Under the pieces are notes generated by a model. It searched no databases and was not told the DNA's origin. It worked only from the letters and a program-made list of their open reading frames with translations. Shown piece by piece: positions 6,239 to 63,071 of a DNA stretch of 64,000 bases (positions are counted from its first letter, which is position 1; every line of letters starts with the position of its first letter). Source of the stretch: Halichondria panicea (lineage: Eukaryota; Porifera; Demospongiae; Suberitida; Halichondriidae); the NCBI RefSeq assembly GCF_963675165.1, contig NC_087381.1:3720001-3784000 (forward strand), in the 5' to 3' direction. The position numbers were made by a program, and so were the translations under genes.

Positions 6239-9200
6239 ATGGATCTCTTGTTGCCCTGGGAGCACAAAGTTTGTGAGGATTGCCTAAAACGGAACCCTCA
6301 CGCCATTTGGCTGGTCAAGTATGGCTGTTTCGGTAACCACCATTGGAAAAAAAGCATCCATGTGGTCATTGACGACGAGAACATGGAGTTAGTGAGGGTG
6401 AGACCTCCTCCAAGTACAATCCAGGGCCAGTTTCACATGTGCAAAAGGGCTGGACATTGCTCTAGAAGCAGTTGTACGTTTGCACACTCTGCTCTTGAGC
6501 TGGACAAATGGAATGCCATAAAAAGTATGCTAGGTGAGTAAGTAAGTGGTTGTGATTGCGTTGTCTTCATGTATCATTTCCTGTGTTACAGCTTGTGGTG
6601 GGAAAGGTTGCCAAGTGTCTGCTCGATCCCCTTCACAAATTTGCTCAGCTTGTTTCAATGCAACCCCCCAAGCTGTCTGGATGGCTTGGATGCCTTGCAA
6701 GAAACATTGTAACAAACCCAAGGTTACCGCTGTTATTAGCTCCGATGGAAAGTGTCTGGTGAAAATTCGTAAACCATCCTCCATGGCAATGACGATTCCC
6801 GCACAGCTGAGGTCACATCCCGACTGCAAGCACGTGTCATGTCTAGACCCCCACAGCCCAGAGGAGCTGGCCTATTGGAAGTGGAGAGTGGACACTGAGA
6901 GAATGTGTAGTGCCCTACAACACAAAATGGTACTGCGTTCATTAATCAGCTCATCATGTAATCGTGAATCTATGTTTGTAGTTAGGTCATGTGAGCTTTA
7001 GGGATATGTGCAGCAAATATTTGTACCCGGATCAGCAGACAGTACTAAGGGGGGTCACTGACCCACTTTCATGGGATAACTACAGAGGGAAGTTCCACAA
7101 ACTAGTCTATCTGGATAATCTAGAGCATGCTCGGAAAATGGTTACTGAGTAAGTCATTCCTAGTAATCTGACAGTGGTAATTATATTCATAACACGTTGC
7201 AGTTGTGATGATGAGCTGATGGTCAGTCGTGAATACGCAGATCAAGTGCTGATCAAAGGGATGGAGAACTCAGCGATGGATTATGTGGCTCAAAACACGC
7301 CCCCTTGTACGGTGCAGATCAGAACAGGAGTGACGCTATTAAACGGAACGTATGACAGGAGACGAGATGGTGGTCTCTTAGTACGACTCCATCAGTGCAC
7401 TTCACCAAAGGATTCTTTCAAAGCTTACGTACACTTTGAGTACAATCACTGGTACTTTTGGAGACTCCATCTTGCCATCTCTTATGCTCATCCTGGACTA
7501 ATTGATAACTTGGTAAATGCAAAATTGCCACGCTATCGTCCCCTACAATGGGAAGCTGTGAACAAGAGGATAGCACTCAAGATTGACAATGAGTACCAAG
7601 AAATGGCTCTTAAAAAGATGCTTCTTTGCAGGCCAGGCTCTCCATTTCTATTAATGGGCCCCTTTGGCACCGGCAAGACACACCTCTTGGTTACGGCCAT
7701 CACAAAGCTTCTGAAAACATCGCAAACAAATCGAATACTCATTTGTACCCACCAAAACAAAGGCGCTGATCACATCTGCAGTCTTCTGAACTCTCAGAAA
7801 TTCATTGGACCTGCGTTAATTGCTCGCTTATACCCTGACGATAAAACTAGAAGTCTACCTCAACAACTTTGCTTCTCCATTCGCGACACTAATGTATCGC
7901 AGTTAGTATCGAAGGGTGTCATAATAACCACCTTTATGACAGCTCTAAGACTCAAGGAAAAAGACAGAGGTGATCAACTGCACTTCTCCCATATTATCAT
8001 TGACGAGGGTGCACAGTCCCGGGAGCCGGAGGCACTGGGAGCTTTGCTCATGGCACAACCAGACACTCATATCATCATTGCTGGTGACAACAAACAGGTC
8101 AGATACAACACATTGCAAATACTCTACTCGGTTCTTGGGTGTGTGCTTCGTATCACATTTCCAAAGTCATCAGTTTGACAAAAGCAAAAGCTTGTATAAC
8201 TGTAGGCCTTTAGTTAATATTGGTCAATCTCACAGCTTGGCTGCTGTGTAATTACATGTAGCTATATCCAACTACTTATTTCCTCCTCCAGGTTGGTCCA
8301 GCTGTTTCAGTGTACTGTGACCTTGCCAGAGAGAATGGCCTCGGGGTATCGATGTTGGAGCGGTTGCTGGATCTCTATCAAAATGAATACAAAGACATGA
8401 AGCAACTTAATTTCCATCGCCATTCTCTCCTCACCAACTACCGCTGTCATCCTTCCATACTTTTGCTAGCCTCCAGTTTATTCTACGAGTGTACACTGCT
8501 GAGCCGCAGCACCAGCAAGACACACCCCTTAGCCCCCTACCCTATAGTCTTCCACTGCTCTTCTGTTCAGCAAGATAGATTGAAAGTGTCTGAGACGTCC
8601 AACAGAAAAGAAGCAGAGCTGCTTGTTGACAAGGTGGCTGAGTTTATTGAGGCGTGGCCACTAACAGAGTCAGAACACCACCCTCACATTGCTATATTGG
8701 CTGGCACTGCTCGCCAGGTAAGTATTGGCTAGCTCTGAATACGAACAAATTGTTTATTAATTTATTACATTGGTAGGCGGAAGAATTACGTCGGAAATTG
8801 AGATCGAGGGACCTACCATTTCATGTGGAGGTCACTTACACCTACACGATTCAAGGTGATTATCACAACATCACTCCACAGTACACTACAAAACATGTAG
8901 ATTGTTCTCTTCGAAAGCAGATACATGTAGTAAACACTGCTTAATAATAATGTATTTCTTGTTTTACAGGTAGTGAGTTCGATGCTGTGTTCTTGAGTAC
9001 CCACGAACCCATTGACAACGAAGGCAAACCAGTCAATGTTGTGCGGAGCATTTGCAACGAATATGTCTTCAATACAGTCATAACGAGATCTCGGTCACTG
9101 ATAGTTGCCGTGGGTAACCCGTTCCTCCTCATCAAGATGGGCACATACTTTCCCATTAACTGTTGGTCTGAGCTGATTCAACGATGCATTACCTGTCAAT

Positions 9201-12200
9201 CCTTCTATCTGCCCCAGGGCATAAACACGCCTAGAGCAGAACTCCCAAAGATGATCAGTACACTTACAGAGAGGGTTCTTCCTACTGAATTGTTTCAAGA
9301 CCTCTACGAGCAAAAGAATGAAGAAGGAGCTGACGTCCTCCTTACGAACTACATCAAGCTACTGAACAAGCGTGGGGAATATTTCTCTGGTTTAAAGTTG
9401 GTTCAGGACCCTCGGAGGGGAGAAAAGGTGTGGCAAATGGAAGAAGAACCGGAGTCTGACCACATTGTATTGGGCGAGCTCAAGTTAAACACCCACCACA
9501 AGGGGGTGGTCAAACCTCACGGTGGCCCAGAGATTAAAGTGACCTCAATGCGAGAGAGACGATGCTTTTTTGATGGTGATAAGGTGCCAGTGGACACGAG
9601 AACAAATGAGATTGTTATGAACGAGGAATTTGAGCAGAAATTTAATGAGGCCCACTTTGGAAAACCAATTGTTTGTCGTGTCAATCCACTGAATATGATT
9701 GAGTTTATGCCTTTAGACAAGCGATGTCCTATTCTTATCAACCTACCTTCACTGACCAAATTTGAGCGAGATGGTGTGATATGCTTTGAGCCGAGCAGTC
9801 TTAACGATCGGGTGAAAGTCAGTAACTTCATTCCCAAAGACCAAGCTCGAAAGATGGTGTTTGTGGTCAAGGTTCTTCAATGGAGACAGCAATTTTCCCA
9901 TCCTCTTGGCATCACTGTTGGTGCCCTTCCCTGCGGAACCTCTATCTACTCAGGGGACCTACTTCTTAAAGTGACAAACCATATCCCGATGCAAAATAGC
10001 TGCACTGATTTTAATAATCCACCAGATTGCAGCCAACCTGACATTCGGCCCTTCAAGGATGTGATAACCATCGACCCTGAGGGCTCTACAGACCATGACG
10101 ATGCTCTCTCCTGTGTGCTGCTATCTGGTTTAGACGGATGTCACGAGTACGAGTTTGGTGTGCACATAACAGACGTGCAAAAGTTTGTCCCCAAAGACTC
10201 CAAGTGTGATTGTATTGCAAGAGAGAGAGGATGCTCCGTGTACAGCTCCTCTGATAATTGTGTAAGTCACATGCTGCCAGAACAAATCGTCACTGCTGCT
10301 AGCATCCTTCATGAACAGACAAGAGACTCATTCTCAGTTATTGCTCGTGTCTCCATCAAACAGAAGAAAGTTGTCGGAATTATCCGTTCAATTAAGATTT
10401 TAAAAAGCAAGATCACTTCGTCCCAAGAGTTAACTTATGAACAGGCTCAGAAATTTATTTTTGCCAAAAAGGGGTGTCGACCATTCAAAGCACTCTGGGC
10501 TATTGCTTGCCATCTCCGAGAGCAAAGACTTGGCCAAAGAGCAGCTGCACACATTCAAGCTCGTAGAGAAGATGAGATAGCGCATCCTGAGGCACACACC
10601 CTTGTCGAAGAGCTTATGATCTGGGCCAACCAAGAAGTAGCTGTCAGGCTGTCCGATTTTCATCCTATGGTTCTTCGATGCCAGCAACCACCTAGTCAAG
10701 ATGAACTAGATGAGTTGGTAGCAGCTCATGGTCAACATATGGCTGTGTCGCTGGACCTCCAACAACATACGCCACAAACACAAACCTATCAGAATGTGCA
10801 AGTGTTACACGAAACAATCAGAGAAATGGGAGTTGCGCTGAGAGAAGGATGTGTGAGGACTGCATTGCATCGAGTTCAACTTGAACACCTCCAACCACAA
10901 GTGGCTGTAGCCCATGCACTTTACCGGCAAATTTGCACTCCTTCCATTTATTGCATAACAGATGACACAGACGATACAGATTATTCCCACAATAGTCTCC
11001 AATGCGATCTTTATACTCGTTTTACCTCCCCAATCAGACGCTATGCTGACCTGGTGGTTCAGCGAATGCTGTTGGCCAATCTGCAAGACAAGGAGAATCC
11101 TTACGTTGGAAAAGAAGAGGAAATCAAGGGTCTTTGTGGAGCTCAGAGAGAGAGGGAGAGAGAAATGAACAAATACGAGGATGGTAGGCGCAACCTGGTC
11201 TTGGCGTCTAGCCTCCAGCAGTCCAGTAGGGAGTATGTGTGCTTTGTGAAGAAAATTGAAAATGGTAAACTGTTCACAGTGTTTTGCGATCCTTCCTTGA
11301 AGATGGTCGGTGATGTCTACTTAAAGCACCTCAATGCCAAGACGATTTCTCAGAAAGAATCGAGCCCCGAACCTGAAGAAGAGGAGTCAGCAAAAAAAAG
11401 CTCTTGCACCTGGCAAGTCAAAATGGCGTCTGCAAATGGAAAACCGAAAAGCTTCCTCAAGAACCCTTACCTTGAACACAGTGAAATTGGAGCAGACATT
11501 GAAATTGTCTTTTTCACACCTGAGCATGATCGATCTGAACCAGACCAAAACTCTGATTTGGAGGAGAAGAGAGTGAAAGCTTCCATCAGACCATTTACAC
11601 AGAGTGTGCCAGCTGATAATTGGAGACAGCTGCAAGGTTACGCCCTCTCCCCACCCTCTAACGCTGATGCTGTGAAGAAACTTCTCCCCAAACCACCTGA
11701 ATTGTCTCAGGGCAAGTTCCCGGACATCACCCACTCCCCCTTGTGGGTGTACGAGCTGCACCGTCCCCTGCAGAGCTGTGAGGTGCTAAGAGTGCAATGG
11801 ACTGGCTGCTTCAACAGCAACACCCAGATACTCTCTCCGATAGTCCAGCTGCTTGAGGTGGGGCCAAACCTACGAGTCTGTATCCAGCACAACAGCAACC
11901 CAGCCGAATGCTTTACAGATATATCTCTAACCAAACCTCCCAAACAAGGCCATACTTCTATTGATCAATACTTTCATTACTGGGAGAGAGTTATTCTTGC
12001 GGAGGCCGCCACAGCTAGCCTTACTGATACAGAGCTACTCATTATCACGAATGTAAAGCTGATCTGGCCCACATTAAATGAGGTCATTGACTCGCAAGGT
12101 CAAGTGTTCTACCAACTGCCAACGGGTGGACGCAATGACGAGCCACAGGATTATTGTGTTTGTATGAAGCTGAACAAGAGCTTCGCCACATCTTCCTACG

Positions 12201-14856
12201 ATTTTTTCAACATAGTAGGCGGTGACTTATTGTGTGTTCGTTGTTATGAGAGTGTGGGTGGTGATGGTGTGCGGGGAGTGCTCCACATGGTGGTCCATTC
12301 GACGACTCATGACGAAGAGGCAGGACCAATCACAGTGTACCTCAAATTTGTTGGGGACCGGCCGAACTACATCAGTAAAACGATGAAAGAAGCTCTAAGC
12401 AAACTTACCTTTGAGGTTCAACTGATTCCTCTGTCTCTGCCTTTCAGGTGAGTACCAAAATTCCAGTTAGTACTAATGTCAATTACATACGTACATTACA
12501 GGCGTATCTACAATTCACTCAAGAACCTCCGATGGTCATGTAGCAAGTCTCTACCTCGTATGACTGCCTTGGGCATAACTAAGTGTGGAGAGAATGGTAA
12601 GTGCATTTCTTGCATGTCCTGTCCTGTGCATAACATATTTCCCCACAGCTCCACACATCAGCAAGCTCTTGCCTAAAAACGTAGCAAGGGTGGCCACTGC
12701 TCTTTGGAAAAGAAACCCACAAGCCAGTAAAGGGCAGAGTCAAAATCTGAACAGCTATCAGCGTCATGCCATTGAGCTGGCATGCAGTCACCCGTTCGTC
12801 ATGATTCAAGGACCTCCTGGTGAGTTATGTTCTCTTTTCCACTCCTCTATTGACATGTAACCCCACAGGCACTGGGAAGAGTGTGACTGGAGCACACATA
12901 GCATATGCTTTGGCTATGAAACTGGTAAAGGAGGTCGGAAAGGTTAGAAGGAAGGATGGCGAACGTACCTGTGTGATGTACTGCGGCCCCTCCCAGCAAT
13001 CAGTCAATGTTGTACTCGGTAAACTAAAATAATATCTACACCTGCATGCACCTTACTATACTAATGCTCCCCTGCACAAATACAAATTAATACACTTTTA
13101 CAGCGTCCCCCCAATTTAATTCTAGTCATTAATTTATTTGGGTATGCAATGTGTCTGCAGACATTCTCATCTCGTCTAAAGAAGTGCAAGACTCAGATCT
13201 AAAGATTGTGCGAGTGTACAGCAATGCCATTGAAAGGAATGATTTCCAGGGTCCAAATTACAATCAACTAATATTCCGTCCACTGAAAGATGACGGAAAG
13301 TGCGAGGAAAAATTCAAGAAATTTTCTTTACATGTCTTGATAAGGCAACAAAATCCACTCATTTTGGAGTATGATAAGGAGTTTAAGCAACTGAAAGAAG
13401 GTAACAAAATACCAAGCTCCCGAAAGAGATCCGAATACCGAAAAATGGTTATGGAAGCCTCCATTGCTGTACTGCAAGACGATGTTGATATCGTGCTGTG
13501 CACCTGCAACGAAGCTGGTAGTGGGCGAATCAACCGCAGCATAAATCCACAGTATTGCATCATAGACGAGTGTGCCATGGCAACAGAGCCGGAGTGCATG
13601 GTGGCTATTAAAAGAGCAGAGAGTGTTGTGCTGATTGGTGACGACAAACAGTTACAGCCCGTGCTCCTGAACAAGGACGCCAAAAGAATGGGGATGGGAA
13701 CCTCATTATTTGAGAGGTATTGCAAGGCTGGTGCACAACCTCACATGCTCAAGACACAGTACAGAATGGTAATTTTATTCTACATAATTTGTATGTAACT
13801 TTATTGTTGTACATACATGCACAGCACGAGGTCCTTTGCAAATTTCCGTCAAGGGAGTTCTACAATAGTGAGCTTCAAACAGATCCGTCTGTGGCAGTGA
13901 AGTATTCTCCCATCCTGGGACGTCTGGCCAATTTCTGGCCTAGTGGCAAGAACACTCCAATGATGCTGTGCAATGTGGTAGGGACAGAGGGAGAGAATCA
14001 CACCGGACATAGGGGGTCCGCCAAGGTCGGCCTTGAGTCCAAGAGGAACAGTGAGGAAGCCAAGACAATTGTGAGTAATAGTCGGATATGCCGTCATTTT
14101 TCATATGAACGTCATTCTCTGGTTCTGTTCTTACACGTGTAGCTATAATTATGTAAACGTGTTCAACGTTATGGTACTCATTGCAATCAGCTTAAACAAT
14201 GCATGACTATAATGTACTAAGGTGCTGTTTTTCACATGGGATTGGCCTTTTACGGTCCCATTTTAGGCTGAAACAGCTCAAAAGCTCATCTCTGAGTTTG
14301 GTGTGAAGGCACAGGAGATAGCAGCTATCACTCCTTACTCTGCTCAGAAGGAAGAGATAAAGAAGTACCTCGAAAGAGAGAACGTTAAGGGTGTGACCGT
14401 CAAGACCATCACAGACAGTCAAGGTAACATAAATACAACGGTACAAGTCGTAACGGTAATCTAAATAATACACACACTGGTTTTGATAATTATTATTTTT
14501 AATAACTATGCAGGTAGTGAGTTTGGGATAGTGCTACTGTCGACAGTTCGTTCACAAGAGTTGTGTAACTTGCGCACAGCCAGTGGGGAACGTAGGAAGA
14601 CTGACTTTGGATGGAGGAGGGAGAAACTCGGCTTCATCACGGACAGACACCAGATTTGCGTGGGCATTACTCGTTGTCAGTATGGTCTGGTCATTGTAGG
14701 TAAGTAAAGGGTGACACCATTGTCTGGTATATGATTGAGTGTTGTATTTTTGTAGGGAACAAAGAACTACTGAGCCATGACCCCACTTGGGAGAAGCTAA
14801 TAAATCATTTTGAGATCGAAGGCTGTGTGGTAGAGGAGAGGGAAATGGAATTATAG
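6239..14856 (+). CDS. HELZ2: HELZ2-like protein: zinc fingers, helicase, RNB exoribonuclease, helicase
   Basis: Fifteen phase-compatible exons: 6239-6533, 6592-6929, 6982-7148, 7203-8097, 8292-8717, 8777-8855, 8970-12447, 12502-12596, 12649-12819, 12869-13018, 13161-13768, 13825-14070, 14267-14423, 14514-14699, 14756-14856. They give 2463 aa, close to human HELZ2 (about 2650). The order is: two related Cys/His finger modules (exons 1-2); helicase 1 with Walker A GPFGTGKTH (about residue 420), DEGAQ, GDNKQ and GSEFDAVFLS; an RNB domain with IDPEGSTDHDDALS (about residue 1100), which keeps all four metal-binding aspartates; then helicase 2 with GPPGTGKS split by an intron, DECA, GDDKQLQP and GITRCQYG. 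Vertebrate HELZ2 is an interferon-induced 3'-5' exoribonuclease and nuclear-receptor cofactor; the role here is inferred. TGA precedes the ATG in frame, so this is the first possible ATG in that exon. Confidence 0.93.
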
Positions 14857-36440: not shown

Positions 36441-36618
36441 CTTCTAAAGGTGAGCATATTAAACAATAACTATTCCATCAATCATTTGTTTATTTAGGCC
36501 TGCATAGTATAGTTTTCATTCCGCTGATCATATCTATATTTAAAGTATTAAACGATTGACACATCCATTTTTAAATCCTTTTTTTTTATCCTTTTCTTCC
36601 CCCTTCAGTTTTGCGTCA

Positions 36619-37464
36619 ATGGATGTGGCAGTCAAGATTGAAATTGATAAACTAGGAACTGTTATCAAGACTATCAATGATCTCAAGATACCTTGGGGAG
36701 TTGCTCTCAACCAAGCTGGGGAGATAATTGTTGCTGAACAGGGTGCTGGTATTGTCTCGATATTCAGCCACGCAGGAGACAAGCTGCAAACATTAGACAC
36801 TCGAGGTACAGCTGTTGGGGAGATGAAGGGACCTCGTGGTGTGGCAGTGGACGGTAATGACAACATTCTGGTGGTGGATCGTGGTAATCATCGACTGTTG
36901 AAATTCTCACATGGAGGAGACCTGATAGCAGCAGTAGGTAGTAATGGCGATGGTCCTGGGCAGTTTAGCATTCCGACTGGTATTTGTATCAACAGTGTCA
37001 ATGCAAAGGTGTATGTGGCTGATCATGGTGCTAACCGTGTTCACATCTTTAACTCTGACCTCACCTTCTCCAGCAAGCTCGGCAGCTATGGCAGTGGTAA
37101 TGGACAGTTCAGCTCTCCTTATGACGTTGCATCCGATCGTAGTGGTTGTGTGTATGTGGCTGAATATGGTAATGCTCGAGTGCAGGTCTTCACACCCGAT
37201 GGTGGCTATCTGAGGCAGTTTGGGAAGAGAGGCAGTGGAAATGGAGAACTTGACAGGCCTGGCAGCATCTGTGTGGGCAGTGATGATCTGGTGTATGTGG
37301 GGGAGAGTGGAAACGATCGTGTGTCGGTGTTCACGTGTGAGGGAGTGTTTCTCAAGTCATTTGGACCATGGCAGTTCAATGGGCCTTATGGCATAGCAGT
37401 AGACCAGTGTGGTGTAGTGTATGTGTCTGGTTATGGCAATAATAAAGTGCAAATATTTTCCTAG
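36619..37464 (+). CDS. NHL-repeat protein (TRIM2/3/TRIM32-type propeller only)
   Basis: A single coding exon of 281 codons starts at MDVAVKIEIDK. An in-frame upstream ATG at 36556 lies in a pyrimidine tract ending CCTTCAG (36608), which looks like a splice acceptor, so I prefer the later start. Five to six NHL repeats form a beta-propeller: PWGVALNQAGEIIV, PRGVAVDGNDNILVVD, PTGICI, PYDVASDRSGCVYVAEYG, PGSICV, PYGIAVDQCGVVYVSGYG. NHL propellers bind RNA or protein. TRIM-NHL proteins normally carry RING, B-box, coiled-coil and filamin domains upstream; none is visible here, so this is a propeller-only paralogue or a truncated copy. A 5' untranslated exon ending at 36449 is possible. Confidence 0.8.
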   Translation: MDVAVKIEIDKLGTVIKTINDLKIPWGVALNQAGEIIVAEQGAGIVSIFSHAGDKLQTLDTRGTAVGEMKGPRGVAVDGNDNILVVDRGNHRLLKFSHGGDLIAAVGSNGDGPGQFSIPTGICINSVNAKVYVADHGANRVHIFNSDLTFSSKLGSYGSGNGQFSSPYDVASDRSGCVYVAEYGNARVQVFTPDGGYLRQFGKRGSGNGELDRPGSICVGSDDLVYVGESGNDRVSVFTCEGVFLKSFGPWQFNGPYGIAVDQCGVVYVSGYGNNKVQIFS

Positions 37465-39787: not shown

Positions 39788-40930
39788 TCAGTCTTCTTCA
39801 GATGGTGCCTGATAGTTATAGTTCACATGATAATGCTCTTTGATCCATTTCTGCGCTTCTTCAGATGGCTCCTGGCCCCACCCACTCTTTAAAATCTGGC
39901 CATAATAACTTACATCAGCACTGCTCTCACCTTCATTCTCTTCCTGTGTTCTGTCATGGAATTTCCTGATTGTTTCCTCATCATCCACTAGCAGGAGGTA
40001 GCGCCATGATGGTCGACCTTTGTCTCTTACGGTCATGATTCTCTTTGCAGCACTCCACTGTTGCCAGGTTGACCCAGGGGCCATTGTGCAAGGCTGGTCG
40101 ATTTTTCTCTTGCATCGAACTACAGTGAAGTTAAGTTTACTGGTGTATTGTCCATCGTGAATCTTTGTATCGGGAGAGTAGGATACAGTTCCAATGTTCT
40201 TTTCATTCTGTACACAACGAGCAGAGAATGCTAGCTCAGCAGGAATCTCATTAGCCAGGCATGATGCGTACACTTTAACAAGGATCCCCTTTTCCTTGGC
40301 AGCGTGTGCACAAGGTCCCACTCCGTGCTCATCCATGAACCTCATAGCCTCCTTCACCCAACACCCAGAGTAGCTGCAATCAGTGGTGATGGAGAGAACG
40401 CGTCCTTTGAAGTATGCATTCTGTAGGTAGAGGTGCATTATATCCCTGAAGCTGATGAAGCCATCACTGAAGCACCAATCTCCCGTTCCCTTCTTGCCAG
40501 GGCCAACATAGTAGAGTATAACTACAAAACAACAAGTCAATGCATATAGTTATTAATATTGTATGATGACCTCACCTCCACATGTGTCAGTGTTGTTCTG
40601 TAGCTGTGTTATCTTCTTAGTGACCTGCTCACATGTTAAAGATCCATCATCTCTCAATATCTCAGCAATGCTTATCTCTGTTTTGTCTAGGCTAAATCTT
40701 GCTTTCATAATGCTCAGGTCGTCATGGTGACAGTCTCTCGGTATACCTTGATTCTCCAGTTTTCGTGTCTCATCATCTTTCAGCTCTCCCCCTGGCCTTC
40801 TTGGTATCACGTCATCATCTTGGGTAGCGAAGTTGGACGTGATTAGTAACACTTCCCTCTTTCCTGATGCCCCGTATCTATATTTGCCATTGTATGTGCT
40901 CCAAGTTGGAGAAGCTCCTCCTGTTGCCAT
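39788..40930 (-). CDS. Caspase-like fold protein of unknown function
   Basis: Two exons (40576-40930 and 39788-40521) encode 362 aa, starting MATGGASPTW. The region about 30-180 has the pattern of a caspase/metacaspase p20-like fold: a hydrophobic strand VLLITSN, then VILYYVGPGKKGTGDW, then VLSITTDCSYSGCWV. The Cys (about residue 167) sits where the catalytic Cys lies, in DCSYSG. The position normally occupied by the catalytic His (GHG) reads GPG (Pro126), so peptidase activity is doubtful. The C-terminal part (WRYLLLVDDEETIRKFHDR) is unlike caspases. Relatives occur in sponges and cnidarians as I recall; role unknown. The gene lies antisense between two Pol I relic exons. Confidence 0.75.
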
Positions 40931-41738: not shown

Positions 41739-44700
41739 GTGATGTCAAAATTGAAATCAGTAACTGTTGTGTTGTTTAAGGTCGTTCTCACCTTACTAAT
41801 ACAAAAATGCAACGCTGAAATATACTATGTAACTCCAAGTTTGTCCTCCTCATACCCTGTTTGCCCTCCTAGTAAGCCTTGTCATACTTTGGACGAATAT
41901 GCAAGCAATGAATTTCTTCATTTCGGCTTCAATGATCGAGTCCATTTACTGTTTCTTGACGGCTCTCATGAAATGTCACCTGGGAAAAGTCTTGAACTTA
42001 GTGGAATTGAACTGCTCACGCTGTCGAAATTAAATGACTCATTGGGATCACATGTTGTACTAAAAACGTTTACAGCATCATTCATCACTCTACAGAAGCT
42101 TGAAATTGTGAAAGTAGAGCTTCAAAGGGGTTCCATAAGTACGTTTGACGTGTGTTTGACAATTTTAAACAAAGTTTCTTTTAGAAATCATAAGTTTTCT
42201 TCAGATGGAAGTAGGCATATTCGAATAGTTGAAGTTCTTCTCATAAACAGCCGTTTCACATTTTCCACTGAGCGCCATCGTAACATCGATGACAGCTGTT
42301 ATGTCAGTAGATTCACATCAAAAGACAGCCAAACATTTGAAATGTATGAAGTACAAATAACAGGTAACTCAACTTTCTTGCAATTGAATTTAGCGGCTGA
42401 GGGAACTGCTACAATTCAAAACACTAGGCTCTCAGGTAAAAACGTTGTCAATGTGTATTTGGTTCCAAGAGTTTTAAGTATTACAGACAACGCATTTCTT
42501 GAAATCATCAACTGCTCCTTCAATGGTATGGAAAATATGTATCTGAGTGACCTTAGTATTAATAAAGAGCGAAGTTTTGCGGTATCAATCATAAATTGCT
42601 CGTTCTTCCATAGCAAACTAAATGTAATTGCTCAAAAACTCTTTCTTCAAAATGCTTCAATTGTTGGCTCGCATGTAATTGACTATGTGATGTTCTTAAA
42701 AGGCCCAATGAATGTTAGTATCAGTAGCAGCACTTTTGATAGTAACCAAGCATTGATATCAACACTGAGAGCAGAAAACATTAATATGTTTTTCTCGGGG
42801 ATTACAACATTTTCAAATAACATCGGAAGCAATGGAGGAGCTATTCAAATGAGCAGATCGACAATATGGCTAGAAAAAAATACACAAGTTAGTTTCATCA
42901 ACAACACTGCTACGCAAATAGGAGGTGCAATTTCAATATCTGAGCAGATAATAAACTCTGCACAATTAAGAAAGCAGTGCTTTTATCAGTTAAACTTCGA
43001 TACCAGAAAAGCACGAATAAATACATCAATTACTTTCAGTGATAACCTAGCACAAATCGGAGGTGACAATATATATGGAGCTGCATTACAAGACGATTGC
43101 ATTGTAAACAGCAAGGAAAAAAACTATGAAGTTCAAGAATCTATTTTTCAATTTCAGACTAAATTAAAATCGTTTTCATCAGTTTCTTCTGACCCAAAGC
43201 GAATCTGCCTATGCAATGCTGAAGCTAAGCCACAATGCAACAACATTAACTACATTTATTTCACCATGTATATAACGCCAGGGGAGAAGTTTAACCTCAG
43301 TCTGGTAATAGTTGGAGAAGATTTTGGAACAGTTACTGGTGGAGTGTATGCCTCACAAGCTAGGCTGAGTAAGCCCTTTAAGCTTTCAGAAGGAGAAGAC
43401 TCTCAGCAAATAAACAGCAATAAAAAATGTACTAATTTGGAATACTCACTGCATTCAGCAAACAAGGATGTCAATAAAGTGTCATTTATTTTGTCTAGAG
43501 ACAGCATTGCTGCCTCATCACAAAGAGCATTTCTTGATGGAATATATAGCAGAAACAGTCTGAAGTTGACTAGTTTTACTGCTAAATCACGAATTCGCCC
43601 TAAGCATTTAAATGCACCAGTAGTGGTTACAGCATTCCTTCTTCCTTGCCCATTGGGGCTCGAATTACATGCAATTGACTACCAAGACAATGTTTGTCTT
43701 TGTGCAGAAAACATGAGAGACTACGTACACAATTGTGTTGTTAAAAATGGTGTGGGGATTTTGTATCGAAACGGGAGTACTTGGATTGGCTCTCGAGACA
43801 GCAATCTCTCGGTGTTTATTACTGCACACAGCTTTTGTCCCTTTGGTTATTGTACGTCAGATGTAGTTGGTGTTGATCTTAACAATTCTGACAGCCAGTG
43901 TGCTCTCAATCGTAGTGGGGTTCTCTGTGGAGGCTGTCCACCTGGTCTCAGCCTGGCTATTGGCAGCTCTAGATGTATCTATTGTCCTGAAAATTCTCAC
44001 GTTACTCTTTTGCTTGTTTTTATGGTTGCTGGTGTAGCTCTTGTATCTTTCATAAGGATGCTTGACTTAACTGTTGCCCACGGAACAATTAATGGACTTA
44101 TCTTCTATGCAAATTCTGTTTGGATACATGAAGGAATTTTTTTTGCTGGTGAGACTAGCCAAATTGATTCAAGAATTGTATTGTTTATGAAAACCTTCAT
44201 TGCTTGGTTGAATCTTGACTTTGGAATTGAAACCTGTTTTTTCAATGGTTTAAATTCATATTCTAAAACTTGGCTCCAATTTGTCTTTCCCTTTTACATT
44301 TGGACTTTAGCTGGGCTAATTGTACTGGCATGCCACTACTCGACTCGAGCAACAAAGTTATTTGGGAACAATACGCTGCCAGTTTTAACCACAATGTTTT
44401 TACTCTCGTACACCAAACTTTTGAGGACTATTGTGCTTGTTTTAGGTCCTGCAATACTTCAACAATACAATCCTGAAGGCAAGAATTGGGTATGGTTGTT
44501 AGACGGTAATGTTCCATACTTAGGAGTCAAACATGCATTTCTCTTCCTCATGGCCTTGTTTGTACTCATCTTTTTATGGCTACCCTATACTATGGCACTT
44601 CTATTTGCTCGTCATCTCTATAAACTACCATTCAATTCCATTCATCGAAAATTGATAACTTTCAAACCTTTGCTAGATACTTACACTGGTCCATTGCAAG

Positions 44701-45179
44701 TCCAGCGGCAGTTTTGGGTTGGTCTAACGTTGCTCATTCGTGTTCTGTTTGCTGTTTCAACAGTTGTATTTCAGGCAATTAATCCAGTTGTTAATATCGA
44801 TATCCTGCTGCTGATTTCTGTTCTACTCTGCATGATTGTTTGTGGTGTTTACAAAAAATTGTATATTAGTATTCTTGAGCTTTCTTATCTCCTGAACTTG
44901 ATCTTTTTATGCATCATTTTCCTCTCAACTTCAGATTCTCAAATCAGACTGGTGAGTACTTGTCTCTCTGTGGGAGTCTGTCTCTTTACATTTATTTGGA
45001 TTGTTTGTTTTCATTCGATGTACATACTATTGTGTTTATTTCGCAAGAAAAAGCTTTGTCTTGGGCGTAGGAAGACTCAAGACAATAACGAGACTGAGAT
45101 TTCGGAAACACACTCGGTGTCTGTGGTTACTACAACAATCGTTGATTTGCATGAACTGTTATTGGAAAATTCACAATGA
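41739..45179 (+). CDS. Large surface protein: beta-helix ectodomain plus multi-TM region
   Basis: An intronless ORF of 1146 codons. A signal peptide (about 1-26, VTVVLFKVVLTLLIQKCNA) is followed by EIYYVTPS...CPPSKPCHTLDEY. Residues about 100-480 have repeated short beta-rich, Asn-rich turns typical of right-handed beta-helices (INCSFNGMENMYLS, GNIGSNGGAIQMS-like). A Cys-rich segment at about 680-760 includes CLCAENM and GVLCGGCPPGLSL. About nine to ten membrane segments follow from residue 755, the first being VTLLLVFMVAGVALVSFI. A cytoplasmic tail of about 40 residues ends the protein. The layout suggests a cell-surface adhesion or sensing receptor of a family expanded in sponges; ligand and signalling are unknown. 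Absence of introns beside intron-rich neighbours hints at retroposition or a family habit. Confidence 0.85.
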   Translation: MMSKLKSVTVVLFKVVLTLLIQKCNAEIYYVTPSLSSSYPVCPPSKPCHTLDEYASNEFLHFGFNDRVHLLFLDGSHEMSPGKSLELSGIELLTLSKLNDSLGSHVVLKTFTASFITLQKLEIVKVELQRGSISTFDVCLTILNKVSFRNHKFSSDGSRHIRIVEVLLINSRFTFSTERHRNIDDSCYVSRFTSKDSQTFEMYEVQITGNSTFLQLNLAAEGTATIQNTRLSGKNVVNVYLVPRVLSITDNAFLEIINCSFNGMENMYLSDLSINKERSFAVSIINCSFFHSKLNVIAQKLFLQNASIVGSHVIDYVMFLKGPMNVSISSSTFDSNQALISTLRAENINMFFSGITTFSNNIGSNGGAIQMSRSTIWLEKNTQVSFINNTATQIGGAISISEQIINSAQLRKQCFYQLNFDTRKARINTSITFSDNLAQIGGDNIYGAALQDDCIVNSKEKNYEVQESIFQFQTKLKSFSSVSSDPKRICLCNAEAKPQCNNINYIYFTMYITPGEKFNLSLVIVGEDFGTVTGGVYASQARLSKPFKLSEGEDSQQINSNKKCTNLEYSLHSANKDVNKVSFILSRDSIAASSQRAFLDGIYSRNSLKLTSFTAKSRIRPKHLNAPVVVTAFLLPCPLGLELHAIDYQDNVCLCAENMRDYVHNCVVKNGVGILYRNGSTWIGSRDSNLSVFITAHSFCPFGYCTSDVVGVDLNNSDSQCALNRSGVLCGGCPPGLSLAIGSSRCIYCPENSHVTLLLVFMVAGVALVSFIRMLDLTVAHGTINGLIFYANSVWIHEGIFFAGETSQIDSRIVLFMKTFIAWLNLDFGIETCFFNGLNSYSKTWLQFVFPFYIWTLAGLIVLACHYSTRATKLFGNNTLPVLTTMFLLSYTKLLRTIVLVLGPAILQQYNPEGKNWVWLLDGNVPYLGVKHAFLFLMALFVLIFLWLPYTMALLFARHLYKLPFNSIHRKLITFKPLLDTYTGPLQVQRQFWVGLTLLIRVLFAVSTVVFQAINPVVNIDILLLISVLLCMIVCGVYKKLYISILELSYLLNLIFLCIIFLSTSDSQIRLVSTCLSVGVCLFTFIWIVCFHSMYILLCLFRKKKLCLGRRKTQDNNETEISETHSVSVVTTTIVDLHELLLENSQ

Positions 45180-49148: not shown

Positions 49149-52100
49149 TTAAACAGTAGTTTGATGAACAGATTGAAGATACTCATACACTTCCTTGTGA
49201 TCATTTTCTCTAGCACAGTCAATGGCAGTTCTTGATAGCTGCATACCAAAGCATTATACATCAGATTGTGCTTAAATGGAGTACGATTAATAATGCTGTC
49301 TCATAGTTACTATAAGAATCCTACTAACAAAAAGGTGGTGGTCAGTGGAGTAAAGCAATAAATGGGCAAGGATGCTTAAGGAGATTCGGTACCTTATGTA
49401 ATTACGGGGGAGATTCAATGCGTGGCTGCATGTGTTCTATATCAATACAGTATAGTACAGTAGACTCTCGTTAATCCGGTCACCCTTGGGACTGCACCTT
49501 GGCCGGAATAGCGAGGTGGATGTATTTCAGGAAATAGCCGCAGCTTAAAAATGACCTTACCTCGAATCTAATGACTAATTTTGCAGTTCTTGTCTCGAGG
49601 ATAATGAAGGATAATGAATCACTCTGCACTCTATTTAAGTCCGGCTGTATAAAACTTAGTTTGGGGAAGCCAGCACTGGCCAGTATACGGAAGAGCGAGT
49701 GGCTGTACTTCAGGGTGAGTTTTGTGCAGTAAACATCTAGCTAGCAATCCGTGCCCAACCAAATGGCTGGTATATCAAGGTGGCCGTACTTCAGAGAACC
49801 GGAATAGCGAGATTCTACTGTATATGGTTTGCAAGAATCCATGCATGTGTGTATACGTAAGTACACACATGCACCACCTTGCCTACAGGTGAAATTTGTA
49901 TTTTATGACACAAGTACGTCGAATACCCAGAATGAAACTAGAGATTTCTGGGCTTTCCAAACAAAAATTTGTAAATATAATTGATATCCTACATGCTAAT
50001 TGTGACACATTTTAATTCAATTAATGTCGCCAAGCTCACACTGTCTTTCATATTGACATCTGCTCCGCTCTTGATGAGAGTGTGCACGATCGCTAAGCAG
50101 CCATAAGAAGAGGCAATTAACAGTGGCGACTGTAATTGCTGCAAATAATAGAGACATGATGCCAGTATGTAATGGCATAACTATACACTTACGTTGTTTT
50201 GAGCATTAACTTCGCCTCCTTTACTGATCAAAACAGTCAAACTTAACGCAGGTCTGTCAGTCTCTTTCTGGACTGTAGCATGCGATGCAATGTGAAGAGC
50301 ATTGTTCCCTTGCTAATTAATTAAGAGAGGAGTTCATTCAATTATAAGTAGATCATCTAGAGGGATAGAGTGTTTGCACTTACATAAATTTCAGCATTTA
50401 CTTTTGCTCCATTGTCAATTAGTGTTTCCACAGTAGTAGAATGATTGTGTTCAACAGCAAACAAAAGAGGCGTTCTTGAGGCCTTCAGAAAATAATTATA
50501 AGTCAGTCACTCATGGTATTGATTAGACTTACTGTATCTTTGACACTGAGGTTAGCTCCATTTTTTATCAAAATCAATGCAGCTGAAGTATGGCCGTTAC
50601 TAGCAGCAAGCATCAAGGGTGTTGAACCACTCTGAGAACACAATCATGCATGTACATAATTAACACTAACTAACACTATAAATTATTTTTTCAAGCACTG
50701 GCTGCTATGGTAATACCTCTGGCACATTTTGTTTTGCACGATCACCAGTGTTAGGGAGCGAATAGGTGCATGATTACATAGTTTAAAGTATATAATTATA
50801 ATGTATAAATACACTGAGAAAAGGTGGATCTGCAGAGCAGTCAAAGTTCACAATCGCTGCTACTTTCTTAACAGCCTTTTTCCCAGGCTGAATTGGTCAT
50901 GGAACGATGTTACTACTTTCTGGCAGTGAATATTTTGTAGCTCTAATTTTTATACTCGATCTCTTAGGTGCCAGAAAGCTAGCACTTAAACCTAGAATAA
51001 TTGTTTACTTGCACTTGTATTTGGATATGGAACAGACAATGAAAGTAACGTAACATACATGGTTCTTTGAATCCACATCTGTTTCATTCTGAAGAAGAAC
51101 GGTGATCACAGAATCATTTCCTTGGCGCGCTGCATCATGAAGGGGACTGTCTCCATCCTTTAAGACAAAAACAGGTGATATCTCACATGAGTATTAATTG
51201 TGGATGTCAGGCGTATAGTGCGTACCTGTACACATAATTATATATGAGGCAGTTATCGTGATTCGATTATAGCCATGAACTACGAAGTAACGGAAGTCTT
51301 TGATTCAAAGCCTTACAGTCAAAACTTTACCTTGTCTTGATCATCGATAATCGCTTTATGTTTTATCAGCGTCTTTACAGTTGATATGTTCCCTTGCCAG
51401 GATGCAAACATAAGAGCTGATCTTGAACGCTACAGTTCAGTAAGATTGCATTACACTTGGCATGAGCGATACCATGGCCATTAGTCAATATACATGCACG
51501 TACCTTATCCTTAAGATTTACATCTCCACCTTTACTAACAAGAAGACTAACAGCATCAGCGTGTCCATGCCAAGCAGCCATCAGTAATGCTGTACGCATG
51601 CTCTGTACAAAATATTACGAACGTACAAGCAGATTTGCAATCATACTACTACCTTATTTTGAGAGTTGACATTGGCACCACAGTGAAGAAGATAATTTAT
51701 GGTATCAAGGTGGCCGTTACGAGATGCTTCAATGAGTGCTGCGTCCTAACGAGAGTGAATAGTGAACAGTATAATCATAGCCTTGTAATAAATGTACTGA
51801 ACTCACATGATTCAATTGTCCTCCTCGACTTGTGAGTAATTTGATAAAGGGTAGTTCCCCATGACAAGCAGCTCCTTCAAGTGGACTGAGGTTACTATTA
51901 CTGACAGATACATTCATGGGCTCAGAGAGTGGCATGTCATTCACAAACACAGTCAGTTCACATTCACCATGCGCACTTGGCATATATAAACCACTGTACA
52001 CACTTGGTAGATGAGGTGTTATGTGCATTGGTAACACTAAGCAATCAGTGCCGTTATGAGAGTGTGATAATAGCCTGCAATGGGCTGTGACTTTTTGTAT

Positions 52101-55100
52101 TGTGTTGATTGGAGAGTCTTTTTCATCAGCTAGAAAAACTTCGAAAGAGGCCACTTTATTCTTAACGGCTTTTTTTGCACCCGAGCCTCTCATGGAGCAA
52201 CAAGGAAGGTGAGGTATGTTCATCACGAACAGTTTATGAGACAACTGGTTCAGTAGATGATCATTCACAAAAACGTCTAGAGTGAATTCGTTCGGAATAC
52301 GAGGTGTGTATGTAAACTCATAATGTCCATGACATTTACTGGGTGTTGCAAAAATATGCTCACTATTCTGTTTACAAGCACTTGTTACTCGAGCCGATAG
52401 AATGTGATCTCCTCCACACAATTCTCCAGCTTCATCTCGAAGAATAACCTTAAAGTCAACTTGGCAATTTACCTCGATCTTGTGCACAGGAAATGACACA
52501 CCTTTAAGTTCACTCTTGGCAAAACATGGCTATAGAGGGGTAGAGTAACGTTTGCTACATCAAAAATTACAATCACACTTACCAGCAGGTTTCGTTTCGT
52601 CTTTAAACTGCGTATATGGCGCTCGATTTCATTCCTGAGTGATATTCTCTTTAGTTTTAGAAGTGCATACTCTGATCTCATATCAGCCAGTTGAATGTTA
52701 CTTTTTGTCAACTCAATTTGTAGTTCAAAGGAATCTAGATTGGGGACTTCATCGCCATCTGAATCTACCGAACGACATCGTTCATAAGAAAAGCTCCTAA
52801 AATTCTTGAGCTTTTCCGATGCATCAATCATTTTTGCTTTCTTCTCAGATAATATGTTGTCAATTCTCTTCACTTTTTCTTTTCGTTTGATCAAAATCTC
52901 CTCTTCCGTAGCAATTTGGGACTGCAGAAAACAAAACCAATACAGGTCATGAAAAAATATTAAAGCATCGAGAGTAGTGACTACGGTCGACAAAGTCTAC
53001 TTGTATATCTAAACTCCCAACATTACAGGTAGATTATATTATGCTGGCATAATTTTGAGCATGTATGACTTACAAGTAGTAGGCACATTTGTGGGTGAGA
53101 AAAAATTAGGCTGGCATAATAGGGCACCTTTAAAACGATTAGGGGCAAACTTTGGAATACAGGTCAGTACTGACTGTAGTAGACTGCTATAAATGAAGTG
53201 AACGTGAGAGCTTCTATAGGATTCTTCCTTGGATTTCAATTTGTGGATTTGCAAAATAATGCTTCGTTCTCGAGTTGCAGTCTCTTCAAAATTGTGTGTA
53301 GCAACATCTGTTGATACATAACTTACTTCGGAGTAGCTCTACACTAGAATGCTAGCTATTGGTGGTAGCTGCAAAACAACCAATCATGCATGGAATTATG
53401 TATCGAGAGCAGTACACTAACGTCATTAGCAGTTGCATTTACACCTATGTAATATAGGCACATTTTTGGGCAAGAATTATGCTGGCATAATGGGTACCTT
53501 TATGTCAATTATGAGAATAATAGGCAAACATGGGAAATGCAGGTCAGTACGAAGTCAGTACTAAGAACATCAATCTGTAGGCCTTATTTATACATTGGGG
53601 GGGGGGGGGGGGTAATTTGCTACATGTGCTTGTGTAGCCTAGCACAGACTGTTAAGCACAGACTGTTATTGAATAATGCATACCTTTACTTCTTTCACAT
53701 ATTTTTTCTGTGAGTAGGATCTTGCTTTCTCTCTTTGCTCTTTCTCAGTTTTGCACGTAAGAGTAGCTTGATATTCATCATCGGCTTTCTGTAATGCTTC
53801 CTCTGTCTCTCGTAGTAGGCTGGACCTCTTTTCCAGCTCAGAAGACTTTTGTGACAAATCGTTCATCAACATACGTATTTGGTTTTTGGTTCTTTTGTAT
53901 TCTTCTTCAGACAAATCCAACCTGTCTTGGAGTTCTTTAACTGAATCACTGTGAAACGAACCATTTAATTCTTCTTCTTTAATGAATTCCGTTCGTATCT
54001 CTATCAGCACGTCATTGGCTTTTCTTTCAAGATGTAATTTCCTTCCCATAAAATCTAAACGCTTTTTTAAGGCATTTCTCTCTTTCTTAACCTCTAGATA
54101 CCGTGTCTTGAGACTTGGAAAATCGTCTTCGATAATTTCTTGGATATCACTACGAACCTCTTTAGAGGCCACCATTGCAGTGTCCCTCAACAATAATTTT
54201 GCATGCTCCACAGCTCCATCAACCTAGTGCAAAGTAAATATCACACAGCATTGAAGCTAATTGGAAATTAACGTAAAATTATTTGACTGCTAACCTCCAA
54301 CACTTTTGGACTACCACAAGCTTTCTCTTCAGGATAAGGGACACCTACACAACAAACGAGACATTCCTTATAAAATATATACCATTAGTATAATTATATA
54401 TACTTATTTACTGGCTAAGCATTGACTGATGTACAACACTTGCTTATACAACAATAAACTAGTTTTCACATTGAATTGCATGCAGAAAAATGCAACAACA
54501 TAAGCCCTTTTTTACACCACTAAAGTACGTCATGACATATACGTTAATATCATTTAAATTGTGAGTATATGTGTCAACATGCAGCTAACTCCAACTTGAA
54601 TTAAAAAGGTGTGCAACATAGGTTAAACTTGAAGCAGAAATACATCATGCAGTGCCTCTCTTTCTGAGGGTACTTCAAATTGTGGTGTAATCCCCTACCC
54701 TACCCCGTGAAGTTAAAACTCACAATATTTTAGGCAGATTGTTCTTGCAAGCTCCCGCTTGTTAACAATACATAGAGCTCGCACAACTCTGTTCCATGAG
54801 ACTTTGGTGTTTCCTTCCAACCACGTAAGGAGTTTTGTGAGAGATTGAATTGCAGAACTAGTTTCCTTTTGGATTCTTTGAATAATGTACGGTGGCACCT
54901 CTAGGTGTATACCAAGATTGTCCCATTCATCTGCTGCTTTTCCAAGTTCTCTAACAAGGTCTGAAAACTTTACATTTCCGCCTGTTACACCAAAATGATA
55001 AGAGTGTATATAATTATATGCAATAATTATTTTCGTATTATTTTCGTATTTGGAAATAATTTATGTGCACTTAACTATGCATAATTCTTATCAGTATTAT

Positions 55101-56620
55101 TATATGTACGTAACTGGTAACTGGTATAATCATAGATTGAAGAGTTAGAGGGATAGGAAACGGTTTGTATCTCGAGTAACATCCGTGCTACGCTGCGGTT
55201 TAATCGAGGCCATCACAACAATATCTATTTCTACACTCAGTGCATAATAAACTACAAGTAACTGTGCTTAGTCCGTGCAACTTCAAGGTCTATACCTATT
55301 GTAGTAGTCATAACCAGCACGCTTACACGTTATATGTTCCAATAGCTCTAAAACAGCCTTGGGAACATATAACTTTATTGGAAAGTCTCTTTTTACTGGG
55401 TGTGGTCAGACGTTAGCAAGTACTACACGTGGCTCATGGACTAGGCGTGTTATAAATTGCTGAAAGAGATGATGTCTCGAGGAAACACAGCTTTGGGAGT
55501 TACCCGGCAAAAATGTGCTTAATAGCCTCGTAACGCGGATATTTTTCGAGGGTCCACTGCAGATTCAATGTAAAATCATCACGTGCACCACTCCGTTTCC
55601 TATCCCTCTAACTGTTCAATTAAAGTATTTCCTAGCAAAATTTAATATCTGGCCACAGAAAGAGTATAGCGATGTTAGTGTGTGTGGGTGGGTGAGGGGG
55701 GGTAACGACTTACATAAACTAGAGCACTAGAGTGCAGGCAAACTTCTTAGCTTGCTTTTATTCGGCAAATTAATAGCAAAAAATTAATAGCAAAATCTGA
55801 AAATAAATAATAAAATTATATTGTTGTGTTGAGGCCATTCATGAGCAGACGCAGACTCAGACTATACACAGACAAACAAACAAAGTAACAGACTACTAAC
55901 CCATGGCCGCCTAGTACCTGTCTTGGAATCGTTGCATCTCGTGTACCATAAGAAAGTTAAACTATTACTATGACTAGTGAGTGATGCATGATCTCATTGT
56001 TACTTTGGGGAATATCTATGAAAACCACAACTGCCAAATAAATAATCACACCTACCAATATCCAGTCGTCCAGAACTTTTATGCTCCATTACACTTGGAA
56101 ATTCGAAGCACAAACTCCTTTTATACATATCAACATAGAACTGTGCGTTGCCTGAAGTAACAAGGTTGATTCTACTTTCGTTATCGGGAGAGCAAAGAAA
56201 CAGTTCCATATCAACTTCCAATGAAGAACTAAACGTATTACGAGTCTCAGCGTCAATTATTGATCTCAATGCTAGACAGATGAGTTGAGACAATCCTTCT
56301 TTTTTTGAAAGTAAAGACTTGACATTATCCAGGATTTTTTGTGGAGGTAAATAGACAGAAAGAATTGGAGCATTCTTATCATAGAAACACTGGACAATTC
56401 TTACATCGAAATCGTCTGAGCTGGTCAAAATGGATGCTATTTTGCTTGCAACAGTAGCCAGCGACACAGACATCTGAAACTCGACACTATGTAGCACTGC
56501 AAACCTGCCATGTCCTCTCACTTCAGTCGGTACTCTGTTTACTGATATCGGGAAACGCAGGGCAAAGAAATCACTATGATATGCTGGACTGGGATACCCT
56601 ATCCCCGATAAATCTCCCAT
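49149..56620 (-). CDS. Death / coiled-coil / filamin / ankyrin multidomain protein
   Basis: Fifteen exons in phase: 56056-56620, 54724-54981, 54295-54344, 53684-54223, 52583-52921, 51807-52529, 51653-51745, 51504-51602, 51331-51429, 51059-51157, 50533-50631, 50384-50482, 50193-50312, 50040-50138, 49149-49238, encoding 1123 aa. Residues 1-188 match no domain I know. Residues 189-274 look like a Death domain (DEWDNLGIHLEVPPYIIQRI, LTKLLTWLEG, SWNRVVRAL). About 292-584 is strong coiled coil. About 585-810 holds two filamin-type Ig units (HYEFTYTPRIPNEFTLDVFV, YSGLYMPSAHGECELTVFV). From 811 on there are nine ankyrin repeats, most encoded by one 99-bp exon each. There is no signal peptide or TM segment, so it is probably a cytosolic scaffold for apoptosis or innate-immune signalling. 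I do not know an animal protein with this order. Confidence 0.85.
49458..49820. mobile_element. MITE with pogo/Tigger-like ends and TA duplication
   Basis: CAGTAGACTCTCGTTAATCC at the left is mirrored by GGAATAGCGAGATTCTACTG at the right, with TA immediately outside both ends. Internal copies of CTGTACTTCAG and GGCCG(T/G)A words recur. The ends and TA target fit Tc1/mariner-pogo-type elements. There is no transposase. It sits in the last intron of the Death/ankyrin gene. A diverged single end lies near 35795 (AATCCGGCCACCC). Confidence 0.75.
53035..53565. repeat. Two diverged copies of an intronic repeat
   Basis: TTATGCTGGCATAAT, GGCACCTTTA/GGTACCTTTA, GGGGCAAAC/AGGCAAAC and ACAGGTCAGTAC/GCAGGTCAGTAC occur in the same order at about 53035-53180 and 53450-53560. 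Both lie in intron 4 of the Death/ankyrin gene and are non-coding. Confidence 0.55.

Positions 56621-57085: not shown

Positions 57086-63071
<5,986 letters not shown>

Follow-up and report, generated by a model that had tools for sequence, protein, structure and literature searches.

A predicted sponge gene joining a Death-type head and a coiled-coil/filamin rod to an ankyrin array, and its relatives with a GTPase tail

The DNA analysed here, referred to as the window, is a stretch of 64,000 nucleotides of the sponge Halichondria panicea (assembly GCF_963675165.1, NC_087381.1, positions 3,720,001-3,784,000, forward); coordinates are relative to this window. On its minus strand a gene running from 56620 to 49149 was rebuilt, with 15 exons, GT-AG introns, a product of 1,123 amino acids (aa) and a stop codon ending at 49149. 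The exon joins of the model are predicted from genomic sequence. The predicted protein consists, in this order, of an amino-terminal domain (N-domain), a Death domain, a coiled coil, two filamin repeats and approximately ten ankyrin repeats. A first-pass annotation of the same DNA had proposed these parts in this order, and our rebuild gave a product of equal length and end. As judged by sequence comparison, the head and the rod of this protein are shared with genes on another contig (C14), and the shared part carries an ankyrin array in the window gene or a septin/AIG1-like GTPase in three of the C14 genes.

A head and rod with two unlike tails

Searching the 131-Mb assembly with the N-domain yielded six loci, namely the window gene and five copies on C14 (32-34% identity to the window N-domain, E 2.5e-17 to 7.4e-15). 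The reverse search with a C14 N-domain as query returned the same six loci, followed by three weak matches at E of at least 0.03. The exon encoding the N-domain and the first Death domain of the C14 copies evolves under constraint: the ratio of non-synonymous to synonymous substitution rates (dN/dS) was 0.35-0.58 in all 10 pairs of the five copies, and 0.31-0.65 for the N part alone. Apart from self-matches, the N-domain, the Death domain, the coiled coil and the filamin pair of the window gene all matched best in one and the same C14 locus group. The filamin pair matched there with E 5.5e-21 and the Death domain with E 6.6e-8, in the latter case with other contigs close behind, from 1.3e-6. 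The first coiled-coil exon had a single relative in the genome at E<=0.001, the C14 copy a1 (E 2.8e-4), and in the reverse search from the C14 coiled coil the window was the only non-C14 match of six (E 3.9e-4). These four parts occur in the same order and on the same strand in three C14 paralogues (a1, a2 and b3), for which the order N-domain, Death, Death, coiled coil, coiled coil, filamin, filamin, P-loop GTPase and charged tail was read by eye. The charged tail contains a Cys/His-rich stretch in a1 and a2, not in b3 (also by eye).

Intron phases were compared for a1 alone among the C14 copies, because this copy, the one modelled in full, was the only one in which an automatic search for splice sites recovered the second Death exon. 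The first six exons of the window gene (565, 258, 50, 540, 339 and 723 bases) and those of a1 (865, 252, 35, 558, 312 and 2,067 bases) both have start phases 0, 1, 1, 0, 0, 0, and within the shared part all five internal introns agree in phase between the two genes (1, 1, 0, 0, 0). The second coiled-coil exons also share their opening residues (Table 1). The first Death domain of a1 lies inside exon 1, and the window gene has one Death domain, in the place of the second one of a1. By exon position and phase we favour the second Death of C14 as the counterpart of the window Death; similarity alone leaves the choice undecided, with 39.4 bits for the best second Death, 34.2 bits for the best first Death, and an alignment of the six N-domain plus Death sequences that pairs the window Death with the C14 first Deaths. 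No further Death-like frame was detected on the minus strand of introns 1-3 among open frames of at least 60 aa.

The first-pass annotation had treated the window model as one gene, the alternative being two transcripts split after exon 4 or exon 6. A misjoin of two adjacent genes, one encoding the head and the coiled coil and the other the filamin repeats and the ankyrins, would be in keeping with the length of introns 1, 4 and 14 (1,074, 762 and 801 bases) and with exon joins drawn from genomic DNA. However, order and strand are repeated in three C14 copies and the intron phases of a1 are the same. Moreover, the ankyrin match starts within the filamin exon: an Ank_2 match of 34.4 bits (cut-off 27.3) begins at the end of exon 6 and runs into exon 7, the exon-6 piece alone scoring nothing. 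A false join of two genes appears unlikely on these comparisons, indeed very improbable, and the single-gene claim was upheld.

In a1, a2 and b3 the filamin exon continues into the P-loop GTPase. When the whole exon frame was scanned, MMR_HSR1 and Septin were over the Pfam cut-off in all three copies and AIG1 in b3 only; the GTPase piece of a1, scanned separately, reached 25.5 bits with Septin, under the cut-off of 26.2. In the window gene, of which five parts were scanned, Pfam detected no P-loop GTPase. The swap point is inside an exon, just behind the second filamin repeat, and the tail exchange was therefore not simple exon shuffling at this point.

Two stretches of the window protein matched the Pfam filamin family (E 4.4e-13, 50.3 bits, cut-off 26.9), in agreement with the two filamin-type immunoglobulin (Ig) units proposed earlier, and the ankyrin array matched with E 2e-71; in the hidden Markov model (HMM) search suggested for the 1123-aa model, both Filamin and Ank were thus over the cut-off. 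Behind exon 6 there are nine ankyrin repeats, one per exon and all in phase 0. Because the Ank_2 match begins inside exon 6, the array was counted as nine exon-encoded repeats plus one; the nine repeats claimed at first are present, and a degenerate one at the end of exon 6 has to be added. Residues 292-584, previously described as nearly 300 residues of coiled coil, bore out this description, with a heptad periodicity z of 5.4 against shuffled sequences (a simple in-house periodicity score, not COILS), 42% charged residues and 2 prolines. The coiled-coil exons matched no specific family in Pfam.

Filamin repeats of the window type gave 79 genome matches at E<=0.01, four of them in the N-domain family and most of the others on contigs C11 and C5; among five such loci that were read, three looked TRIM-NHL-like and two looked like filamin proper. 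The C14 GTPase had 11 matches on C14. Ten of these fall at 2.09-2.19 Mb and the eleventh, at 2.88 Mb, belongs to b3; contig C6 has one further, weak match. The heads in this GTPase cluster (loci L059-L069) differ, being either CARD-like, or composed of N-domain, Death, coiled coil and filamin, or not seen at all. Of the eight cluster copies without N-domain seven were read: four show no recognisable head in about 1.4 kb upstream, and three have an upstream frame of a common type, which scored just under the CARD cut-off in two cases (23.8 and 23.1 of 23.9 bits) and did not in the third. Of the 10 cluster copies read, 7 have a Cys/His-rich stretch behind the GTPase (by eye).

The N-domain and its resemblance to TRADD

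The first 188 residues, which the first-pass annotation could not assign, had no Pfam match at E<=10. In the Pfam scans of the N-domain the sole match other than Death was that of UPF0172 with copy b1 (E 0.015, below the cut-off). The alignment of N-domain plus Death gave five weak matches among solved structures, including two to PIDD (E 0.3 and 0.54) and, on the N part, two to fragments of zinc transporters (E 1.6 and 1.9), and none of the 49 pattern stretches in viral contigs and 39 in prokaryote genomes was confirmed as a relative.

The structure of these residues was predicted, as had been proposed. Two AlphaFold single-sequence models both had strand-helix-strand-strand-helix-helix-strand as main elements, but the predicted local distance difference test (pLDDT) score was only 41 and 46. 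In Foldseek searches neither model had a match at E<=0.001 among the best 50 of 349 and 1,199 matches, respectively. With the first model the TRADD-N structure 1f3v_A ranked 8 of 349 (E 0.33), and its query template modelling (TM) score of 0.36 was the highest among the best 50. With the trimmed second model the best 50 of 1,199 were ferredoxin-like or unrelated folds, and TRADD-N was not among them.

The N-domain could be a true, diverged TRADD-N, in which case the head would be a TRADD-type module on a TRIM-like rod. The order of elements predicted in both models resembles the topology given for TRADD-N in Kaur et al. 2021 (PMC8195603), where the domain is described as similar to the RNA recognition motif (RRM) and its turn motif as strongly conserved. 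The Foldseek rank of 1f3v_A points in the same direction, as do the position of the N-domain directly before Death, which is also that of TRADD-N in TRADD, and the presence of sub-threshold TRADD-like_N domains in the same genome, mostly on the contig of the window (C5). Against this stand the low pLDDT values, the E value of 1f3v_A and its absence from the best 50 for the trimmed model. Furthermore, the window N-domain and two C14 copies had no match to PF09034, PF13820 or PF20694 at E<=10, and the hhalign comparisons with TRADD, with NCOA6 and with two TRADD-like domains from the genome itself gave probabilities of at most 1.5%. In the turn between the second and the third strand, all six sequences lack the combination of a small residue with Ser (or Cys); they have K-N-A (window) or D-N-Y (the five C14 copies) in a turn placed by a low-confidence model. 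Taken together, TRADD-N ancestry is possible, if on the unlikely side. Because profile comparison was empty and the turn motif absent, the term TRADD-N-like is used here in a hypothetical sense, on account of the predicted fold and the position only.

Filing of the N-domain as TRADD-N was rejected, since Pfam, hhalign and the turn motif all gave nothing in its favour. In the H. panicea genome PF13820 had 0 matches, which is uninformative as it likewise had 0 in 14 control genomes, and PF20694 had eight, none over the cut-off. Six of the eight sub-threshold TRADD-like_N matches are at 2.95-3.07 Mb of C5. Two TRADD-like_N loci of this contig (L071 and L072) scored 20.3 and 18.4 bits (cut-off 23.7), and in one of them the same stretch holds what by eye appears to be the start of an ankyrin repeat. 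The C5 domains may be of the kind that was expanded in the sponge Amphimedon according to Kaur et al.

A proposed signalling scaffold and its known counterparts

The window protein is reasonably likely to be an intracellular, rod-shaped signalling scaffold of the innate-immune or cell-death type, with a variable sensor tail, a TRIM-like rod and a Death output. The tail would recognise, or be switched by, a ligand: the ankyrins would bind a protein, and the GTPase of the C14 copies would be switched by nucleotide. Coiled coil and filamin repeats would, as in TRIM proteins, form dimers and set the distance between the tails, and clustering would bring Death domains together, which could then nucleate homotypic assembly with further Death proteins encoded in the genome (130 of 150 scored genome candidates matched Death at E<=1, many of them weakly). 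The N-domain would act as an adaptor of RRM/ferredoxin-like fold and would regulate partners or recruit them, by analogy with TRADD-N before the Death domain of TRADD.

Several observations weigh against this reading. The role of the window gene, including the link to apoptosis or innate immunity, is an inference from sequence. In Pfam, solved structures, viral contigs and prokaryote genomes nothing outside the six known copies was convincingly related to the N-domain by sequence. The Death domain of the window (exon 2) was below the Pfam cut-off (E 0.03, 14.9 bits, cut-off 22.6), and comparison of this exon with solved structures by phmmer found no Death protein, the single match being a designed protein (E 0.76). 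The Death assignment of the first-pass annotation is therefore not borne out by the family profile itself; it holds through kinship. Exon 2 was counted in the Death superfamily because it is related to the second Deaths of C14 (E 6.6e-8 to 4.4e-6 in the genome search), of which those of a1 and b3 are over the Pfam Death cut-off (6.1e-6 and 1.1e-5); in the same two copies the first Death falls short of this cut-off (7.7e-4 and 0.0096). In the C14 copies Pfam detected one filamin stretch per copy, and the second repeat rests on the alignment to the window gene. Finally, an in-frame stop interrupts the second Death exon of a2 and b2, and filamin and GTPase are kept in three of the five C14 copies, from which it follows that part of the family is decaying. 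Copy b1 consists of N-domain and Deaths only, and b2 of N-domain, Deaths and a broken coiled-coil piece.

The state of the C14 copies raises the question whether the window gene itself, as part of a family in decay, has degenerated or is not expressed, as the loss of filamin and GTPase from b1 and b2 and the stops in a2 and b2 might suggest. This is quite improbable, since all 15 window exons are open and have GT-AG ends, and since 64 columns are invariant across the six N-domain plus Death sequences despite the window copy being only 29-32% identical to the others.

Filamin and ankyrin modules are typical components of scaffold proteins, which would also suit a cytoskeletal or membrane scaffold, in which they tie membrane proteins to actin and the Death domain serves only for oligomerisation. 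We consider this unlikely. Pfam found no actin-binding domain in the five scanned parts of the window protein, and the best solved relative of the filamin pair by sequence is TRIM45 (E 0.0031). The exchange of the tail for an AIG/septin-like GTPase encoded in a tandem cluster, where CARD-like first exons stand beside some GTPases, also points to immune-type families.

The signalling scaffold proposed above has counterparts among TRIM proteins. TRIM-NHL proteins and TRIM45 likewise have a coiled coil, filamin Ig and then a recognition tail, whereas the window gene differs from TRIM-NHL in its Death head, in having two filamin repeats instead of one and in having ankyrins (or, in C14, a GTPase) instead of NHL. 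No RING or B-box match was found by Pfam in the five scanned parts of the window protein or in the scanned C14 parts; by comparison, the two TRIM-NHL genes scanned from this genome were over the cut-off for each of RING, B-box, Filamin and NHL. TRADD, like the window gene, has an amino-terminal alpha/beta domain (tentatively so for the window protein) followed by Death, although a sequence relation could not be demonstrated. TRADD ends after its Death domain.

Two published animal systems also resemble the family. Kaur et al. (PMC8195603) describe metazoan proteins in which Death and TRADD-N heads are combined with variable tails and which underwent lineage-specific expansion, also in Amphimedon; the commonest Amphimedon tails are ankyrins or SH3-LRR, and AIG GTPases occur in an oyster. 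These proteins resemble the window family in having a Death-family head, an adjoining unusual alpha/beta domain and a variable ankyrin or AIG tail. As in these proteins, a constant Death-containing head with an exchangeable tail was found here, with ankyrins in the window gene versus a GTPase in C14. In contrast, most Amphimedon architectures given there have Death followed by TRADD-N, whereas in the window gene the N-domain precedes Death and lacks the TRADD-N signature. In the main text of that paper the word filamin has 0 occurrences and coiled-coil has 1. In a study of AIG proteins in the snail Biomphalaria (PMC7053062), AIG GTPases that bear CARD or Death heads are described, and CARD with AIG1 and coiled coil. 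The C14 copies share with these AIG/GIMAP proteins a Death-fold head, coiled coils and an AIG-type GTPase; the window gene differs from them by its ankyrins in place of the GTPase, and filamin has 0 occurrences in the text.

The first-pass annotation had suggested that the architecture was undescribed. This can be kept for the particular form: no description of the head-rod-filamin arrangement or of its tail exchange was found in the literature searched, which lay mostly outside subscription journals. It does not extend to the overall theme, which has been published for a sponge. Within this literature a Death-type head with a variable tail, ankyrins included, is already known (PMC8195603), and the coiled-coil/filamin form with tail exchange is new. 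A wider proposal, namely that these genes represent an unnamed animal immune family in which the E3 head of a TRIM-like rod was replaced by a TRADD-type head (diverged TRADD-N plus Death), the tail is swapped between ankyrins and GTPase, and the TRADD order occurs outside vertebrates, is rather doubtful. One Death head and rod on two unlike tails in a single genome is what one would expect to see if intracellular sensors of animals arose by exchange of the recognition part. The N-domain, a predicted alpha/beta domain of no Pfam family in the position occupied in the TRADD adaptor by TRADD-N, may bear on whether the layout of TRADD exists outside vertebrates.

Exons of the window gene and other genes

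The exons are listed in Table 1 with the C14 copies. The last exon, 801 bases beyond exon 14, is the least certain part of the model.

Table 1. Exons of the window gene and positions of the C14 relatives
Feature	Position	Strand	Remarks
Exon 1: start codon and N-domain, aa 1-188	56056..56620	-	phase 0 to 1; no Pfam family; predicted b-a-b-b-a-b, low confidence
Exon 2: Death domain, aa 189-274	54724..54981	-	phase 1 to 1; exon position that of second Death of C14 copy a1
Exon 3: short linker	54295..54344	-	phase 1 to 0; position and phase match 35-base linker exon of C14 a1
Exon 4: coiled coil part 1, aa 292-471	53684..54223	-	phase 0 to 0
Exon 5: coiled coil part 2, aa 472-584	52583..52921	-	phase 0 to 0; begins SQI, likewise C14 a1
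Exon 6: pair of filamin-type Ig repeats, then the first ankyrin repeat (degenerate), aa 585-825	51807..52529	-	
Exon 7: ankyrin repeat	51653..51745	-	Pfam
Exon 8: ankyrin repeat	51504..51602	-	Pfam
Exon 9: ankyrin repeat	51331..51429	-	Pfam
Exon 10: ankyrin repeat	51059..51157	-	Pfam
Exon 11: ankyrin repeat	50533..50631	-	Pfam
Exon 12: ankyrin repeat	50384..50482	-	Pfam
Exon 13: ankyrin repeat (40 rather than 33 residues)	50193..50312	-	Pfam
Exon 14: ankyrin repeat	50040..50138	-	Pfam
Exon 15: capping ankyrin repeat and stop codon	49149..49238	-	Ank_4 match extends from exon 14 into exon 15; least certain exon
C14 copies a1, a2	C14, 2.09-2.11 Mb		
C14 copies b1, b2, b3	C14, 2.856-2.886 Mb		

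Beyond the 5' end of the gene, at 58293-58556 on the minus strand, there is an isocitrate/isopropylmalate dehydrogenase exon (E 1.1e-7). On the plus strand AAA_11-type helicase frames adjoin an RNB nuclease domain (E 2.2e-52) at 7153-12448 and 13133-13795, a second AAA_11 frame following; the frames are reminiscent of helicase-RNB proteins of the HELZ2 type. The same strand has a 306-aa open frame with NHL beta-propeller repeats (36544-37461, E 5.8e-34) and a 1,146-aa open frame (41739-45176) whose sole match is a Chlam_PMP repeat (21.8 bits, cut-off 20.6). A 253-aa frame on the minus strand (39791-40549) had no Pfam match at E<=0.01 and contains a DCSYSGCW stretch, which looks metacaspase-like. 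Elsewhere in the genome, among the best 150 candidates, a cluster of many very long ankyrin-repeat open frames (up to 4,555 aa) was seen at 1.0-2.05 Mb of contig C12.

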